From the NCBI RefSeq assembly GCF_003946265.1, contig NZ_RHNO01000010.1, positions 1 through 64,000 of the forward strand: a DNA stretch of 64,000 nt, written 5' to 3'. Under the pieces are notes generated by a model, which was not told the origin of the DNA, did not search any database, and was given only the letters and a program-made list of their open reading frames with translations. The translations under genes and the position numbers were made by a program. This stretch comes from Levilactobacillus yonginensis. Lineage in GTDB: Bacteria > Bacillota > Bacilli > Lactobacillales > Lactobacillaceae. How positions within the stretch are numbered: the first letter of the stretch is position 1; each line of letters opens with the position of its first letter. Of this stretch, positions 39,952-45,164 are shown in pieces.

Positions 39952-40843
39952 TGGTATCCAACCCCCGTTTCAAAATATGCTTGAAGTTGAAAATGTTCTT
40001 GAAGACTGGCAACATCATGCAGATGGCCAGAATGATGGAGGAAATCAGGTTGAGGTCGTTGGCGCTGAACCCCAGCTTGAGGACCAACAGGAGGACGAAC
40101 CGGTAGAGAATACTCCCCAGGGTGACCGCGACCAGCCGTTGGTTCAGGGTCAAATCACCGAAGGCTACTTCACCAATGATGATGGAGGCCAGGGCGATAA
40201 CGATGATCCCGATACCCATGTTGACGTCAGAGTAGCCGTTGTTTTGGGCAACCAGGGCGCCCCCGAAGGCAATTAGCCCGTTGGAGACCATCAGTCCCAT
40301 GATTTTCATGTTGTCGGTGTTGATTCCAAGTGACCGCGCCATCGTTTGGTTATCGCCAGTGGCGATGAAACCTTGGCCGAGTTCCGTTTGCAGGAAGTAG
40401 ATGACCAGGGTCGTGATGACAATCATGACGGCCGCGCCTAACACAACGCTATCGAAGTATTGGGGCAGGGAAGCCAGGAAGTGATTTTTAAACAACGTAG
40501 ATTTCCCTAATAAAGAAACGTTGGCACGACCCATGATCCGTAAGTTAACCGAATAGCAGGCGGTCATGACTAGGATGCCGGCTAATAAAATGGGAATGTG
40601 GCCCTTGGTGTAGAGCAGACCGGTGATGAGCCCAGCAATGGCACCAATGGCGAACGCCAATAGTGTGGCGAGTAGCGGGTTCATCCCGTTACTGATGGCG
40701 GCGACAGCCGTGGCCGCTCCCAAGGGGAACGTTCCTTCAACGGTCATGTCGGCAAAATCTAGAATTCTAAAGGTTAGGAATAACCCAACCCCGAGGACGG
40801 CCCAGAGTAGGCCTTGCCCGATTGTGGATACTGCTAAACTCAT
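39944..40843 (-). CDS. trpY: ABC transporter permease, TrpY-like
   Basis: 299 aa, about eight to nine membrane segments, of the branched-chain amino acid permease class (BPD_transp_2). Conserved blocks: GVGLFLTFRILDFADMTVEG, the INLRIMGR-like NLRIMGRANVSLL and GLMVSNGLIAFGGALVAQNN. Its ATG overlaps the trpX stop (ATGA, 40840-40843). Together with TrpX and TrpZ it forms an uptake system for an aromatic amino acid. Confidence 0.9.
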   Translation of the reverse strand: MSLAVSTIGQGLLWAVLGVGLFLTFRILDFADMTVEGTFPLGAATAVAAISNGMNPLLATLLAFAIGAIAGLITGLLYTKGHIPILLAGILVMTACYSVNLRIMGRANVSLLGKSTLFKNHFLASLPQYFDSVVLGAAVMIVITTLVIYFLQTELGQGFIATGDNQTMARSLGINTDNMKIMGLMVSNGLIAFGGALVAQNNGYSDVNMGIGIIVIALASIIIGEVAFGDLTLNQRLVAVTLGSILYRFVLLLVLKLGFSANDLNLISSIILAICMMLPVFKNIFNFKHILKRGLDTND

Positions 40844-41832
40844 TTGAAGACCTCCCCATGTTCTTTGGCTTCCTTAACAACTGATGCTGGTAGCGTGATG
40901 CCCAGCTTCTTGGCTTGCGACAAGTTAATGGTCATTTCACCCTTGCGTTCAAACTTGATTGGCGTGTCGGCGGGCTTCTTACCCTTTAAAATATCGGCAG
41001 TCATCTTACCCGTTTGAACACCGAGCTTGTACTGGTTGATACTCAGAGTTGCTAATCCGCCAGCCTTGACCATCGTATCGACGGCTGGGAAGACGGGGAC
41101 TTTCTTGGCGTTGGCCGTGGAGACCAGCGTCTGCATAGCACTGGCCACGGTGTTGTCGGTTGGCACGTAAACGGCATCGACTTGGCTGACCATCTGTTGG
41201 GCGACTTGGTTTAAGTCGTTGGTGTTTGCGATGGAGTAGGCCTTCAGCGTCACGTGTTGTTGTTTACAAAGTGCTGCGAATTGGTGATACTGCGCGGTGG
41301 CTGAGTCATCAGATGATGTGTAGATGATACCCAACGTCTTCATATTTGGCATGATTTTTTGAATCAATTTTAATTGTGACTTGAGTGGTGCTTGGTCAGA
41401 AACCCCAGTGACGTTATTACCGGGATGTTCGTTGCTCTTGACTAGGTGCGCCCCCTCAGGGTCGGTGATGGCCCCGAGAACGACGGGGATGTTGGAACTG
41501 GCATTGGCCAGTGCTTGCGCGGATGGCGTGGCGATGCCAATCATGGCGTCGGCGTTCTCGTTGACGAAGCGCGCGCTCATCGTTTTCAGATTACTCTGAT
41601 CATTTTGCGCGTTTTGAAAGTCGATTTTCACGTTCTTACCAACGTGGTAACCTTCTTCGGCTAACCCGTGAATGATTCCTTTATGGATGGCATCCAGGGC
41701 CGGGTGGGAGAGAAGTTGCAAGATGCCGACCGTTGGTACCTTAGCTTTCTGAGCAGTTTGGTGTTTCTCTTGAACAAAGGCGAAACCGAGAAAAACAAGT
41801 AAAATGGCAATGAGTCCGTATAATCGTTTCAT
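40840..41832 (-). CDS. trpX: TrpX-like substrate-binding protein
   Basis: 330 aa (ABC_sub_bind family). The N-terminal hydrophobic anchor MKRLYGLIAILLVFLGFAFV has no lipobox Cys, so it is membrane anchored rather than a lipoprotein, as I recall for pneumococcal TrpX. Then VGILQLLSHPALDAIHKGI, the IGIATPSAQALA and ITDPEGAHLV blocks. It should bind tryptophan or a related amino acid. The leader (41877-42104) holds a Trp-containing leader peptide and two terminators. Confidence 0.88.
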   Translation of the reverse strand: MKRLYGLIAILLVFLGFAFVQEKHQTAQKAKVPTVGILQLLSHPALDAIHKGIIHGLAEEGYHVGKNVKIDFQNAQNDQSNLKTMSARFVNENADAMIGIATPSAQALANASSNIPVVLGAITDPEGAHLVKSNEHPGNNVTGVSDQAPLKSQLKLIQKIMPNMKTLGIIYTSSDDSATAQYHQFAALCKQQHVTLKAYSIANTNDLNQVAQQMVSQVDAVYVPTDNTVASAMQTLVSTANAKKVPVFPAVDTMVKAGGLATLSINQYKLGVQTGKMTADILKGKKPADTPIKFERKGEMTINLSQAKKLGITLPASVVKEAKEHGEVFK

Positions 41833-41876
41833 TTTCTAATCAACCTCACTTATTTTGGAATTGGCAGTCGATACAA

Positions 41877-41904
41877 AAAGGGCACCCAGTCCGGCCGGGT
41901 GCCC
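41877..41904 (-). terminator. Second terminator in the trpX leader
   Basis: Minus strand: GGGCACCCGGCCGGACTGGGTGCCC then TTTTT. It lies 45 bp before the trpX start, so it must be bypassed for expression. Confidence 0.85.
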
Positions 41905-41913
41905 AAAGAAAAA

Positions 41914-41951
41914 GGCCCGCAAAACCGGATAGTAAACATCCGTGCGGGCCA
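41914..41951 (-). terminator. First terminator in the trpX leader
   Basis: Minus strand: GGCCCGCA-CGG...CCGG-TGCGGGCC followed by TTTTT. Two terminators in tandem upstream of trpX show tight attenuation. Confidence 0.85.
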
Positions 41952-42027
41952 TTGCATCAGAAAGTTAGCCGGCGCAGATGCGAGAATCGCTCTGGGAGCT
42001 CAAGTCGCATCAACACTGATGAGACTT
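41952..42027 (-). promoter_or_regulatory. Competing hairpins of the trpX attenuator
   Basis: AAGTCTCATC (42018-42027) pairs with GATGCGACTT (42002-42011). Alternatively GATGCGA (42005-42011) pairs with TCGCATC (41977-41983). AGCCGG (42033-42038, inside the leader peptide frame after the Trp codon) pairs with CCGGCT (41967-41972). CATC/GATGC pairing also links to the first terminator base (41954-41958). The conserved T-box sequence AGGGTGG-ACCGCG is absent. Confidence 0.6.
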
Positions 42028-42029
42028 GA

Positions 42030-42077
42030 TTACCGGCTTTGCCAACGTCCATTAAGTTCAATCGCAGACATTTGCAT
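42030..42077 (-). CDS. Putative Trp-containing leader peptide of trpX
   Basis: 15 codons: MQMSAIELNGRWQSR, with GGAAGGAAAG upstream of the ATG at 42077. The single Trp codon (42042-42044) lies four bases before AGCCGG, one strand of the switching stem. A ribosome stalled at this codon would cover that strand. One Trp codon is few for an attenuator, so confidence is moderate. Confidence 0.5.
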   Translation of the reverse strand: MQMSAIELNGRWQSR

Positions 42078-42110
42078 ATAACTTTCCTTCCTTCCGTTTT
42101 GATTAAATTT

Positions 42111-42139
42111 AGTGTACGGCATTGCTTAAAGACCGTCAA
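42111..42139 (-). promoter_or_regulatory. Promoter of the trpXYZ leader
   Basis: Minus strand: TTGACG (42134-42139), a 17-base spacer, and TACACT (42111-42116). Transcription should begin near 42104, giving a leader of about 270 bases before trpX. Confidence 0.7.
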
Positions 42140-42190
42140 CCTTAATTTTCACTTTTTTCTGAAAGTGGTGGTTGGTGGGGTGGCTGGGTT

Positions 42191-42380
42191 GCCACCTCCG
42201 GTGGCCGGGACTGGGGGCCGCTGTGGGGACCGGCGCAAGCCTGAGAGGCGGTCTTGCTCCTCGGTTAGAAGCCTCGGATAATGCCCCGAGTCTCCTAACC
42301 GTCCCACAGTGTAACCTGGCCCAAAACACCAGGTAACACTGTTGTCACTGCGGCCCCCAGTCCCAGCCACCTGCGGCTAC
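42191..42380 (-). repeat. Module A copy 6 (reverse)
   Basis: End hairpin GCCACC/GGTGGC; outer stem GGGACTGGGGGCC/GGCCCCCAGTCCC; core GCTGTGGGGACCGG; arms GCGCAAGCC/GGTCTTGC and GGTTAGAAG/CTCCTAACC. Head-to-head with copy 7. Confidence 0.87.
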
Positions 42381-42613
42381 TCTGAGCTGATGGCAATTAT
42401 GTAGTTGGTGAAAATTGCGAGTAGTTGTGATGATTGTTCTATTACCATTAAGCAGCATTGGTGGATGGAGGCAATACTGACTACTCTTCAGAGATATCTG
42501 TGCTGGCTAATGTGCTGTTACCTGGTCACACTAAACAGCTCTGAAATTATTGTTGGTCGGCACCCAATTTTTGGTATACTGGACGATAACAGTTGATGGT
42601 TGAACACAAGTTA

Positions 42614-42790
42614 AGCCGGAGGCGGTCAGGTTGGGGTCAGCTGTGAAAATGGCGTTAGCTAGTGGGTTGCTAGCTTACGGCATGGGCGACTTTGAAGACA
42701 GGTGGGTTAACCTGGCTTCAAATCGAGCGAGAAGCCCGGTTCACAGGCTGAAGCGTCCCCACAGCAGGCCCCGACCTGACCGCCGGAGCG
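42614..42790 (+). repeat. Module A copy 7 (forward)
   Basis: Outer stem CGGTCAGGTTGGGG / CCCCGACCTGACCG. Arms GCGTTAGCTAG/CTAGCTTACGGC, CTTTGAAGAC/GGCTTCAAAT and GAAGCC/GGCTGAAG; core CCCCACAGCAGGC. It lies between the trpXYZ promoter region and degV. Confidence 0.87.
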
Positions 42791-42846
42791 CGACCATTAC
42801 AACTAATATACATAACTTAAATATCAGTACAGCAAGGAGGCTGCTC

Positions 42847-43740
42847 ATGAAGATTGCAATCCTGACGGACACGTCGGCCGGTATTGCCTTTGATGAGGCT
42901 AAACAACGGCACATCCACCTGTTATCAGCACCAATCATGTTTGGTAACCGGCAGTATCACGAGTACGAAGACTTGAGTACCGCGGATTATTATCGGTTGA
43001 TGCGGCTATCTAAGTCTAAAAAAATGGTGCCAACCGCACCGCAATTGTCCATGCAGACGATTCAAGCGGCTTGTGCTGAGTTAGCCCAAAACGGGGTGAC
43101 TGACGTCATCATCATTGGGCCATCACTTGGTATCTCGGGCTTTGTGAATACGCTGGCCGCGTTCGTGGAAAACATTACTAGCGTCCACGTGCACCCCTGG
43201 GATTCACGCGGTATCTTAACAACCATGGGTGAACAGGTTCGCTTAGCCGCAGCTTTGGCCGACCGGGGGGCCACCATCGCTGAAATCTTTGAGCAGTTGA
43301 CGAAGCTGCGGGCCACTACCCACAGTGCCTTTGTCATTGACTCTATTAAGCCACTGCTGCGGACCGGTGCGGTCAATCCCAGCCATAGTCCTGGTCCGGC
43401 GCCAATTTTACCCGGCAAACCGATTCTGGTCTTCGAATCAAACGGAAAAATGCGGGTCGCTGGGAGTGCTTTGCGGTTGAAAGGGGCTCTCAGCGATTTC
43501 TTAGATGACCTGGCAACCGACATTGCCGGGGTAGCTCCAGTCAAGGCAACGATTTTGAACGCCGACCAACCGGAGACCACTGCACAATGGGTGGCAACCG
43601 CCCAAGAACGCTTTCCTACCGTGACTTTTGAGACGGCTTTGATTGGCCCCAGCTTTGGCGTTCACGTCGGTGATGGTGCCATGGGACTCGCTTGGTGCCA
43701 AGATTATCGTAGTCTATTAGCTCCTGAAAATGAGAATTAA
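42847..43740 (+). CDS. DegV-family fatty-acid-binding protein
   Basis: 297 aa. The start MKIAILTDTSAG at 42847 follows AAGGAGG; the frame extends upstream into module A but that part is not coding. N-terminal DTS motif, then the IIGPSLGISGFVNT, FVIDSIKPLLRTG and the C-terminal HVGDGAMGLAW blocks. DegV/FakB proteins hold a fatty acid for phosphorylation by FakA. The family is multi-copy in lactobacilli; no fakA is here. It lies between the two TrpXYZ-type cassettes. Confidence 0.9.
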   Translation: MKIAILTDTSAGIAFDEAKQRHIHLLSAPIMFGNRQYHEYEDLSTADYYRLMRLSKSKKMVPTAPQLSMQTIQAACAELAQNGVTDVIIIGPSLGISGFVNTLAAFVENITSVHVHPWDSRGILTTMGEQVRLAAALADRGATIAEIFEQLTKLRATTHSAFVIDSIKPLLRTGAVNPSHSPGPAPILPGKPILVFESNGKMRVAGSALRLKGALSDFLDDLATDIAGVAPVKATILNADQPETTAQWVATAQERFPTVTFETALIGPSFGVHVGDGAMGLAWCQDYRSLLAPENEN

Positions 43741-43753
43741 ATTAAAATTAGGG

Positions 43754-43782
43754 TTGACAGGCCCATTTCAAAATGGTTAACT
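43754..43782 (+). promoter_or_regulatory. Promoter of the Phe-leader ABC operon
   Basis: TTGACA at 43754-43759, then a 17-base spacer and a weak -10 TTAACT at 43777-43782. Transcription would start about 30 bases before the leader peptide ATG. Confidence 0.6.
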
Positions 43783-43820
43783 GGTAATTGTAAATTGATA
43801 AATGAAAGGGATTATGACTT

Positions 43821-43883
43821 ATGAAATTAATCAGCCTAACTCATTTAAATAACCAGTTTGCCTTTAGCTTTTTCTTTAGATAG
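43821..43883 (+). CDS. Putative Phe-rich leader peptide
   Basis: 20 codons: MKLISLTHLNNQFAFSFFFR. GAAAGGG lies 10 bases upstream. Five of the last eight codons are Phe (residues 13, 15, 17, 18, 19), the pattern of an amino-acid-sensing leader peptide such as pheL. The bases encoding these Phe residues include CTTTAGCT (43862-43869), which pairs perfectly with AGCTAAAG (43945-43952). A frame at 43814 is the alternative but sits too near the ribosome site. Confidence 0.72.
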   Translation: MKLISLTHLNNQFAFSFFFR

Positions 43884-44000
43884 CGTTTGTATTCATTTCG
43901 TTGGATACGAACGCATCGCACAATTGCGTTTGTATCTATCGATTAGCTAAAGTTTTTCAGCATGACTTAGCGCCAGATAGATACGGGTTAATCTATCTGG
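43862..44000 (+). promoter_or_regulatory. Mutually exclusive hairpins of the Phe attenuator
   Basis: First set: GCGTTTGTAT (43883-43892), ATACGAACGC (43905-43914) and GCGTTTGTATC (43926-43936); the middle arm can pair with either side. Second set: CCAGATAGAT (43973-43982) and ATCTATCTGG (43991-44000). The latter can also pair with CCAGGTAGAT (44027-44036), the 5' arm of the terminator, giving the classic 1:2, 2:3, 3:4 arrangement. Confidence 0.72.
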
Positions 44001-44023
44001 AGAAATAATATCGGGCCCGATAT

Positions 44024-44070
44024 ACACCAGGTAGATTCTACTCAGAATCTATCTGGTGTTTTTTGTTTTT
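44024..44070 (+). terminator. Attenuator terminator
   Basis: ACACCAGGTAGATTCT (44024-44039) pairs with AGAATCTATCTGGTGT (44044-44059) with a 4-base loop, followed by TTTTTTGTTTTT. It precedes the ABC gene by about 125 bp. Confidence 0.92.
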
Positions 44071-44195
44071 CCGGCAGCCCTGGACGCAGGGTCACCGCGC
44101 TGGATACTGGTTATAAATTTACCAATTAGTCTTAACTAAATAACGTTCCGTGACCGGGACGACAACGAAATCACATATTCTTGGAGGAATTGATT

Positions 44196-45164
44196 ATGAA
44201 AAAATTACTTATGAGTGGCATTGCCTTATTAGGTTTAGGGTTAGTTTTAGCAGGGTGTTCCAGCAAGTCGACTGCCAGCAACGGTAACTTAAAAGTCGGC
44301 ATGTTGCAGGTCGTGCAACACGGTTCACTCGACGAGGCCCGGCAAGGATTCAAAGCCGGTTTGAAGCAGGAATTGAAGGCTCATCACAAGTCGACGAAGG
44401 TGACCTACCACTACTTAAACGCACAGGGTGATCAAGCCAACCTGAATACCATGAGTCAGCAATTGGTTCAACAGAAGAATGATTTATTAGTTGGTATCGC
44501 CACGCCAGCCGCACAGGGCTTAGCCAAGAAGACGAAGACTACACCAACGTTGGTTACCGCCGTGACTGATTTGAAGTCAGCTGGCCTGGTCAAGTCCAGC
44601 AGCAAGCCGCAGACCAACGTCAGTGGCACGAGCGACATGACGCCGGTGGGCCTGCAACTCAAGTTACTGGCTAGCATGACCAAGGGCAACAAGCCATTGG
44701 GAGTGATGTACAACTCTTCAGAAGAAAATTCTGTCTTACAAGTGAAGATTGCCAAGGCGTACGCCAAGAAACATCATTTGAATTTGAAAATTGTCAGTGC
44801 TACTAGCACCAACGATGTTACGAGTGTGTTAGCTGGACTGACCGGCAAGGTATCCGGCCTGTACTTACCAACCGATAACTTGATGGCAAGTGCCATGAAG
44901 ACCATTGGTCAAAAGGCGAAGGCTGCCAAGTTACCAGTTGTTACCGGTTCAATTGAAATGGCGCAAGATGGTGGGACTGCTACATACGGCATCAACTACT
45001 ACGACTTGGGCAAGCAGACTGGGAAGATGGCCTACGACGTCTTAGTCAACAAAAAGAAGCCACAAAACATGGCCGTTCAAGAATCTAAGAAATTGCACTT
45101 ATACATTAACCAGACCAACACCAAAGCAATTGGGTTGAAGCCTAGTCAAATTACGAAACCTTAG
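44196..45164 (+). CDS. Lipoprotein substrate-binding protein, TrpX-like (Phe-leader operon)
   Basis: 322 aa. ATG 44196 after TTGGAGGA; lipobox LVLAGC with Cys21, so unlike the paralogue at 40840 it is a lipoprotein. Conserved blocks: VGMLQVVQHGSLDEARQGF, LVGIATPAAQGLA and VTDLKSAGLV (PEGAHLV in the paralogue). It should capture an amino acid outside the cell. The leader peptide suggests phenylalanine (or aromatic amino acids) as the sensed and possibly transported compound. Family assignment is strong; substrate is inferred. Confidence 0.88.
   Translation: MKKLLMSGIALLGLGLVLAGCSSKSTASNGNLKVGMLQVVQHGSLDEARQGFKAGLKQELKAHHKSTKVTYHYLNAQGDQANLNTMSQQLVQQKNDLLVGIATPAAQGLAKKTKTTPTLVTAVTDLKSAGLVKSSSKPQTNVSGTSDMTPVGLQLKLLASMTKGNKPLGVMYNSSEENSVLQVKIAKAYAKKHHLNLKIVSATSTNDVTSVLAGLTGKVSGLYLPTDNLMASAMKTIGQKAKAAKLPVVTGSIEMAQDGGTATYGINYYDLGKQTGKMAYDVLVNKKKPQNMAVQESKKLHLYINQTNTKAIGLKPSQITKP

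Follow-up and report, generated by a model that had tools for sequence, protein, structure and literature searches.

Which signal sets the expression of an ABC importer of Levilactobacillus yonginensis? To address this question, we analysed a window of 64,000 nucleotides (GCF_003946265.1, contig NZ_RHNO01000010.1, positions 1-64,000 of the forward strand), for which an initial annotation had proposed that a TrpXYZ-type operon is preceded by a phenylalanine-rich leader peptide with a four-segment attenuator. On the evidence described here, it is very likely that an attenuator read by the ribosome through its Phe codons controls this operon, and that the operon encodes a phenylalanine importer.

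Results

A Phe-rich leader frame upstream of an ABC importer

The leader frame MKLISLTHLNNQFAFSFFFR occupies 43821-43883 on the + strand (ATG 43821 to TAG 43883) and holds five Phe codons (43857, 43863, 43869, 43872 and 43875), all in its last eight residues. With its start codon and the Shine-Dalgarno-like sequence GAAAGGG at 43804-43810, the frame that had been pointed out in the initial annotation is indeed present, and such a short frame rich in Phe codons, predicted to be translated, is what marks the feature as a putative leader-peptide attenuator. A consensus scan of 43600-44250 gave no + strand promoter; a TTGACA at 43753 is accompanied by a poor -10 only and is a weak promoter candidate. 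Two other frames were set aside: one from the ATG at 43814 (MTYEINQPNSFK), which would share the same Shine-Dalgarno sequence at short spacing and is restricted in this form to the closest relatives (L001, L031 and L032, with one change in L047), and a mini-ORF at 43962 (ATGACTTAG), dropped because its frame is not kept in relatives.

Downstream lie, on the + strand, a binding lipoprotein (PF04392, 44196-45164), a permease (PF02653, 45180-46151) and an ABC ATPase (PF00005, 46072-46851). The lipoprotein, whose closest named record is that of L. tongjiangensis (99% shared), is related to TrpX but scores 307.8 bits against the TrpX equivalog model NF041285, below its cut-off of 390 bits, whereas a paralogue on the - strand (40840-41832) reaches 497.5 bits and is a TrpX, or tryptophan-binding protein. 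The operon is therefore TrpXYZ-type by homology, as first described, while its binding protein does not qualify as TrpX. This difference in score fits Phe rather than Trp uptake. We propose the lipoprotein as a Phe binder and Phe as the probable substrate of the importer. Relatives with solved structures, as found by sequence, are 3lft, 6hni and 3lkv; we take 3lft to be a Trp-bound pneumococcal protein and 6hni to be CD0873 of C. difficile, presumably a Tyr binder. The paralogous system has its own leader peptide with a single Trp codon, overlooked in the initial annotation (MQMSAIELNGRWQSR, 42030-42077, - strand), and the terminator of a Trp attenuator (41909-41950, - strand). Trp leaders of the MQMSAIELNGRWQSR form are found in 32 of 35 copies (34 genus genomes and the window; the exceptions are L102, L111 and L118).

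Conservation of the leader peptide

The initial annotation had made its reading depend on conservation of the Phe frame in relatives, and this conservation is what we observed. A degenerate pattern search found the FAFSFFFR-stop tail in 56 of 397 Lactobacillaceae genomes, belonging to five genera, and the reversed pattern gave no match. Before the chance-like match in G217 was excluded, the count stood at 57 genomes and at 6 of the 40 genera. Among the 56 tails, 52 are identical 27-mers and four carry synonymous changes, the pattern itself admitting only changes of that kind. Loci defined through the protein gave the tail in 28/28 named loci and in 29 of 30 genus loci, and there too the codon differences in the tail are synonymous (TTT/TTC, AGA/AGG). 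The one locus without it (L040) is cut off where its contig stops; the same genome has a leader at the edge of a second contig (L124), which probably belongs to this locus. Of the two genus loci beyond the 30 fetched, one (L125) also has the leader, and the other corresponds to L018, judging from the length of its contig and its position there. Codon counts on rows picked for their peptide tail were kept out of this assessment of conservation. The N-terminal half of the peptide is variable while the tail is constant. Of the 35 genomes sampled from the genus, 32 encode the + strand binding protein at high identity, and the other three (G001, G033 and G034) have the Trp-type binding protein only.

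Alternative pairings in the leader RNA

The RNA that follows can be divided into a chain of + strand segments with competing partners. Segment 0 (CTTTAGCT, 43862-43869) lies within the Phe codons and is exactly complementary to segment 0' (AGCTAAAG, 43945-43952), as had been noticed at the outset. Segment 1 (43883-43894) pairs with segment 2 (43903-43914), which can pair instead with segment 3 (43926-43940); segment 3 has segment 4 (43973-43984) as its alternative partner, and segment 4 has segment 5 (43990-44000). Segment 5 in turn pairs with segment 4, with segment 6 (44024-44039), or, in untranslated RNA, with segment 0b (43876-43883), which is formed by the Phe-Arg-stop codons. Segment 6 is also the 5' arm of the terminator, whose 3' arm and T run make up segment 7 (44044-44064, the arm itself being 44044-44059). 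The stem between 44024-44039 and 44044-44059 has 16 pairs and is followed by the T run, in agreement with the terminator first placed in 44024-44070, and the segments first listed at 43973, 43991, 44027 and 44048 pair as described. These pairings of the proposed four-segment attenuator hold; what the initial annotation took for a complete attenuator is part of a relay of seven segments. The loop between segments 5 and 6 contains a perfect palindrome (ATATCGGGCCCGATAT, 44008-44023), with GGGCCC kept in most of 65 aligned rows, which may act as a self-pairing loop or fold into a small hairpin.

A search for terminator-like sites gave one, against a mean of 0.5 in shuffled sequences. The region 43783-44075 folds with -96.5 kcal/mol, as compared to -60.4 +/- 4.2 in dinucleotide shuffles (z -8.6), and none of 200 shuffles was as good.

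The comparison with relatives that the initial annotation had called for used an alignment of 65 distinct elements, from which identical rows (e.g. L068 and L069), L040 (contig end) and L129 (the chance-like match of G217) were left out. Standard pairs are kept at 99.8% for 0:0', 99.4% for 1:2, 100% for 2:3, 99.6% for 3:4, 99.5% for 4:5, 97.2% for 5:6 and 96.4% for 6:7, and the 0b pairing at 98.7%. Taken as sets, the terminating helices (0:0', 2:3, 4:5, 6:7) keep 98.6% of their pairs and the antiterminating helices (1:2, 3:4, 5:6) 98.8%, whereas controls with partners slid by one to three columns keep 26-39% and 24-48%, respectively. A terminator and an antiterminator that exclude each other are thus both conserved in relatives. 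Nine pairs of the terminating set have changed on both sides, seven of them in the terminator, and none of 500 shuffles reached this number. The antiterminating set has only three such pairs, a number equalled in 92 of 500 shuffles, so that it is supported mainly by G-U changes that leave the pairing intact. In five rows, one column of segment 4 goes from A to U and its partners in segments 3 and 5 change too, the signature of a strand serving two helices. Unaided, RNAalifold recovered 0:0', 0b:3, 1:2 and 4:5.

Ribosome position and the folding switch

We propose that transcription of the importer genes is governed by a ribosome-mediated attenuator that senses charged tRNA-Phe. Under shortage of Phe, the ribosome on the leader would stall at one of the five Phe codons and cover segment 0, leaving segment 1 free, so that 1:2, then 3:4 and then 5:6 would form; with segment 6 occupied, RNA polymerase would read through. 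When Phe is plentiful, the ribosome would reach Arg-stop and cover segment 1, and 2:3 and then 4:5 would form, leaving segment 6 free to pair with segment 7 and stop transcription. In the case of no translation, 0:0', 0b:5 or both would favour termination, such that read-through would need a stalled ribosome, a step that the folds support in part.

Equilibrium pairing probabilities, computed with the nucleotides under the ribosome barred from pairing and with no kinetics, show a switch of this kind in the window element as long as segment 7 is not yet made. In a transcript ending at 44040, just short of segment 7, a Phe codon in the A site gives 5:6 a probability of 0.81-0.95; this drops to 0.13 for Arg and to 0.00 for the stop codon, at which 4:5 reaches 0.99. 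The position of the step depends on the assumed footprint: Phe codons give at least 0.81 for edges of 11, 13 and 15 nt; with edges of 11 or 13 nt Arg antiterminates too (0.92 and 0.91) and the step falls at the stop, after Arg20; with 15 nt it falls after Phe19, and with 17 nt before Phe19 (0.28). Because Asn10 to Gln12, Ala14 and Ser16 antiterminate as well (at least 0.57 in all four edge settings), specificity must rest on the ribosome pausing at Phe. For a transcript ending at 44003 the equilibrium prefers 4:5 with Phe15 to Phe19 in the A site (0.85-1.00), and once segment 7 is present 6:7 stands at 0.98 at every ribosome position; the relay would therefore need its early helices to form first and to persist.

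Among the homologues, 39 of 65 go from above 0.5 for 5:6 with a stall at Phe17 to below 0.5 at the stop; the probability falls by more than 0.1 in 46 of 65 and rises in none, and 23 of the 65 keep 5:6 above 0.5 at the stop codon. Folded with no ribosome, the window element is ambiguous just before segment 7 (5:6 0.53, 0b:5 0.37), gives 0b:5 at 0.85 in the full-length fold, and is antiterminated as a shorter transcript (0.88). Without a ribosome 33 of 65 homologues have 5:6 above 0.5, and termination as the default without translation is thus not general in the folds. The RNA of the Trp element follows the same logic in folding, more weakly than the Phe element: upstream pairing of the 5' arm of its terminator reaches 0.81 when the A site holds Trp, as against 0.43 for the stop codon and 0.42 in the absence of a ribosome, but several earlier codons also give 0.77-0.81. 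Attenuation through Phe codons, as originally read, finds support in the conserved Phe frame, the conserved alternative pairing and, for the window element before segment 7 is made, the equilibrium switch in silico.

Relation to known RNA families

At Rfam gathering thresholds the window contains a TPP riboswitch only (RF00059, 5503-5594, - strand, 67.2 bits), and no leader model matches. At a relaxed threshold, 43864-44082 aligns end to end with RF02863, sRNA_2410 (30.4 bits, E 0.019), against a gathering cut-off of 61 bits; the element is, as judged by alignment, a homologue of RF02863 and by the cut-off a non-member, while relatives in other families of the order score above the cut-off. 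The minus-strand Trp element resembles RF04312, the trpB motif, weakly (26.7 bits, E 0.7; gathering cut-off 59 bits). At E <= 0.001, RF02863 matches 83 of 148 Lactobacillales genomes (37 over the cut-off) and RF04312 matches 87 of 148 (35 over the cut-off), and the genome of the window is in neither of these match sets.

These two families raise another explanation, namely that the element is a stand-alone sRNA, as sRNA_2410 is annotated, or a small-molecule riboswitch, as was proposed for the trpB motif. Both classifications are published (PMC5593968 and PMC11109978), and the E. faecium RNA was observed as discrete transcripts (PMC5593968). An attenuated leader also yields a discrete short RNA. 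The RF02863 model begins inside leader codons: of its best-scoring 30 loci, 29 have a leader with an FSYFR-like tail, the stop lying at model position +17 in 28 loci and at +26 in L302, and only in L294 was no leader found. For RF04312, a Trp leader precedes the model in all of the best-scoring 30 Lactobacillales loci, with 9-22 nt between the two. With a frame at so nearly fixed a place, we regard a free-standing sRNA or a riboswitch as highly improbable. Across the phylum, RF04312 matched four of 299 genomes, one of them within Lactobacillales; the three matches outside the order, weak and below the cut-off, have no leader (0/3) and are probably due to chance. In Lactobacillales, judging from these positions, sRNA_2410 and the trpB motif look like parts of the leader-attenuator system. 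The frames downstream of the best-scoring 30 RF02863 loci resemble AroE in 16, a DAHP synthase in one and the binding protein in 13 (Pfam was run for one AroE, L297, and for the DAHP synthase, L307). RF04312 and RF02863 have overlapping matches at eleven places in ten genomes (e.g. G484:C2:96925-97102); the two models thus cross-hit, and weak RF04312 matches are not all Trp elements. The overlap hints at a common origin of the Trp and the Phe/Tyr elements.

One could also suppose that the element binds tRNA-Phe directly, as a T-box-like riboswitch with an untranslated leader. The same genome is rich in T-boxes (26 matches, five over the cut-off), and the trpXYZ operon of S. suis is under a Trp T-box (PMC9382623). 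None of these 26 is on the window's contig, however, and the T-box model has no match in the window at gathering thresholds or in 41700-44300 at E <= 5. Moreover, the frame behaves as a coding one, with synonymous variants and amino-acid switching. An Rfam scan of 60 related loci or upstream regions gave a single T-box (L244). We reject T-box identity on these covariance-model results, and rate it as the least probable of the alternatives, with hardly any chance of being correct. In L244 (T-box at 291-526, - strand), whose genome belongs to family f4 and is probably a Streptococcus, a T-box seems to stand in place of the leader.

An order-wide family with exchanged codons

Homologues of the binding protein were found in 39 of 45 further genomes and in 98 of 118 genomes of an order-wide sample, and we read some of their upstream regions by eye. 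Leaders with Trp, Phe or Tyr codons were present in 47 of 50 regions (not in L137, L153 and L157), in 25 of 28 (not in L181, L182 and L185) and in 37 of 40 (not in L214, L218 and L244), in forms such as QLNNQFAFSFFFR, QLNNRFYFSYFR, QLNNRYYYSYYG, QLNHNFFAGFFG, LNGRWQSR and WQNWRR. Leaders in Lactobacillales carry Trp, Phe, Tyr or Phe and Tyr codons. The Phe reading of the initial annotation is retained, and the device takes its place in an order-wide family whose leaders carry Trp, Phe or Tyr codons or a mixture. A preliminary script assigned a leader to 164 of the 178 distinct binding-protein frames; at least one of these assignments (L258) was an artefact, and we put in its place the leader found among the loci of the Rfam models. 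On a binding-protein tree thinned from 178 to 129 rows, of which 118 were counted (11 being without a leader), the Trp and Phe/Tyr classes are separated by one change, as compared to a minimum of 30 and a mean of 35.5 in 200 label shuffles, and four leader classes need six changes against a shuffle minimum of 51.

Tandem binding-protein genes occur in L331 (G043), L332 (G045) and L333 (G054). In L331 and L332 each gene has its own leader, with differing aromatic codons, the copies of L331 bearing FYFSYFR and YYYSYYG leaders in one genome; in L333 no leader was found for two of the three genes.

In the Phe/Tyr branch the RNA changes together with the codons. The Phe form pairs CTTTAGCT with AGCTAAAG; in Tyr leaders the corresponding pairs are CTATAGCTATTAT/ATGATGGCTATGG and CTACGGCTATTA/TGATGGTCGTAG. 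Codon changes in relatives (Phe to Tyr, Ser to Gly) are matched by changes in 0'. For 60 distinct Phe/Tyr leaders the mean helix score is 24.1 with their own downstream part, 19.2 with swapped and 15.1 with shuffled ones, with 8 of 37 distinct tails outscoring 95% of the swaps. The window's own tail falls short of that level, 16 of 51 swaps doing as well, because many tails share TTTAGC. Trp leaders show a weak effect (own 18.7, swapped 16.8, shuffled 15.2; 3 of 33 distinct tails beat 95%), and we therefore claim co-variation of codons and RNA for the Phe/Tyr leaders only.

These exchanges bear on a further alternative, a nascent-peptide sensor resembling TnaC, in which the C-terminal part of the peptide would arrest the ribosome at the stop codon when the free amino acid is abundant, cover segment 1 and so bring about termination. 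Such an arrest would have the same outcome for the RNA, and it would suit the FAFSFFFR tail being unchanged in every protein-chosen named locus (28/28), the Arg-stop endings of many leader classes, and the single Trp codon of the Trp leader in the window. The aromatic residues vary with the gene controlled, however (FAFSFFFR, FYFSYFR, YYYSYYG, FFAGFFG, FYFWYFR), which is easier to reconcile with the reading of codons than with a single binding pocket, and the fixed nucleotides are partly explained by 0:0' pairing. We consider a peptide sensor unlikely, with a small chance of being correct, and retain codon reading by the ribosome.

We built a further model from 27 Phe elements so that it includes the leader codons. 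It finds matches in 48 of 151 Lactobacillaceae genomes and a single copy in the genome from which the window comes. The 19 loci inspected all have an aromatic leader, followed, by eye, by binding-protein frames in nine, MFS-like frames in seven and aminotransferase-like frames in three; Pfam confirmed the aminotransferase of L367. In L362 (1659-3125) and L372 (1705-3120), an MFS transporter carries a C-terminal chorismate mutase domain, as confirmed by Pfam; this uncommon joining of transport with aromatic biosynthesis is encoded downstream of a Phe/Tyr-rich leader.

Discussion

Attenuators such as pheL and trpL of enterobacteria combine a leader peptide rich in the regulated amino acid with alternative hairpins and an intrinsic terminator, a stalled ribosome leading to read-through. 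The Phe element has the leader peptide, alternative hairpins and terminator in common with them. It differs in having seven segments instead of four, in using the sensing codons themselves as a pairing strand (0:0'), in controlling an importer, and in matching no Rfam leader model at gathering thresholds.

The initial annotation held such a regulator to be unusual in a lactobacillus, T-boxes or TRAP being the norm in Firmicutes. The Phe leader stands, but leader-peptide attenuators have precedents in Firmicutes: the ilv operon of S. aureus (PMC5794164), hisS/hisZ of Bacillus (PMC2965389) and his operons in some cases (PMC9413887). These concern other amino acids and other genes, and the portions of the three sources that cover them describe no order-wide, codon-switched family. 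The operon of S. suis is of the homologous aromatic amino acid ABC type but has a tRNA-binding Trp T-box and no leader peptide (PMC9382623).

The RNA sRNA_2410 is listed as a 195-nt sRNA of E. faecium with two transcripts (PMC5593968). It is homologous to the Phe element, and its relatives with FYFSYFR-like leaders lie upstream of the same type of binding protein or of aroE-like genes; unlike the element of the window, whose leader is Phe-only and whose score is below the cut-off, it is annotated as free-standing. For the trpB motif, PMC11109978 gives over 900 representatives and a "strong riboswitch candidate" with no ligand, its authors leaving a classic attenuator open; what we add is a Trp leader just upstream of its best-scoring Lactobacillales members, alongside its weak likeness to the minus-strand Trp element. 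Short frames with aromatic codons have also been proposed to control aromatic biosynthesis genes: uORFC-13-1 before aroF, a candidate frame (PMC8632094), and a pair of shikimate-linked uORFs containing Phe and Tyr (PMC6429828). Neither Lactobac(illus) nor Enterococcus occurs in the main texts of these two papers. Among the matches listed, the open-licence PMC literature gave no description of a codon-switched leader family, which is weak evidence of novelty.

Based on our results, we think it probable that one inherited and re-programmable attenuator serves the aromatic amino acid economy of Lactobacillales. In this reading, a common scaffold (often QLNN, aromatic codons and Arg/Gly-stop) with its hairpin relay would have been copied to ABC importers, MFS-chorismate mutase fusions, shikimate genes, aminotransferases and trpB. 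Its codons would be rewritten to Trp, Phe, Tyr or a mixture according to the gene, with sRNA_2410 and the trpB motif as branches. In the Phe/Tyr branch the codons would double as a helix arm and, when rewritten, drag the opposite arm along; after gene duplication they would diverge, as FYFSYFR and YYYSYYG in one tandem suggest.

At least in Lactobacillales, this offers a testable answer for the orphan trpB motif and for the "sRNA" of Enterococcus. In many Lactobacillales, leader-peptide attenuation would fill a role that is frequently assigned to T-boxes in Firmicutes, and the elements form a natural series for the co-evolution of a coding stretch with a regulatory RNA helix. If the family reading is true, the leader residue would be a label of transporter specificity, and leader codons could point to the likely substrate (Phe, Tyr or Trp) of poorly annotated ABC importers, which would be relevant to food fermentation and to the metabolism of aromatic amino acids in the gut.
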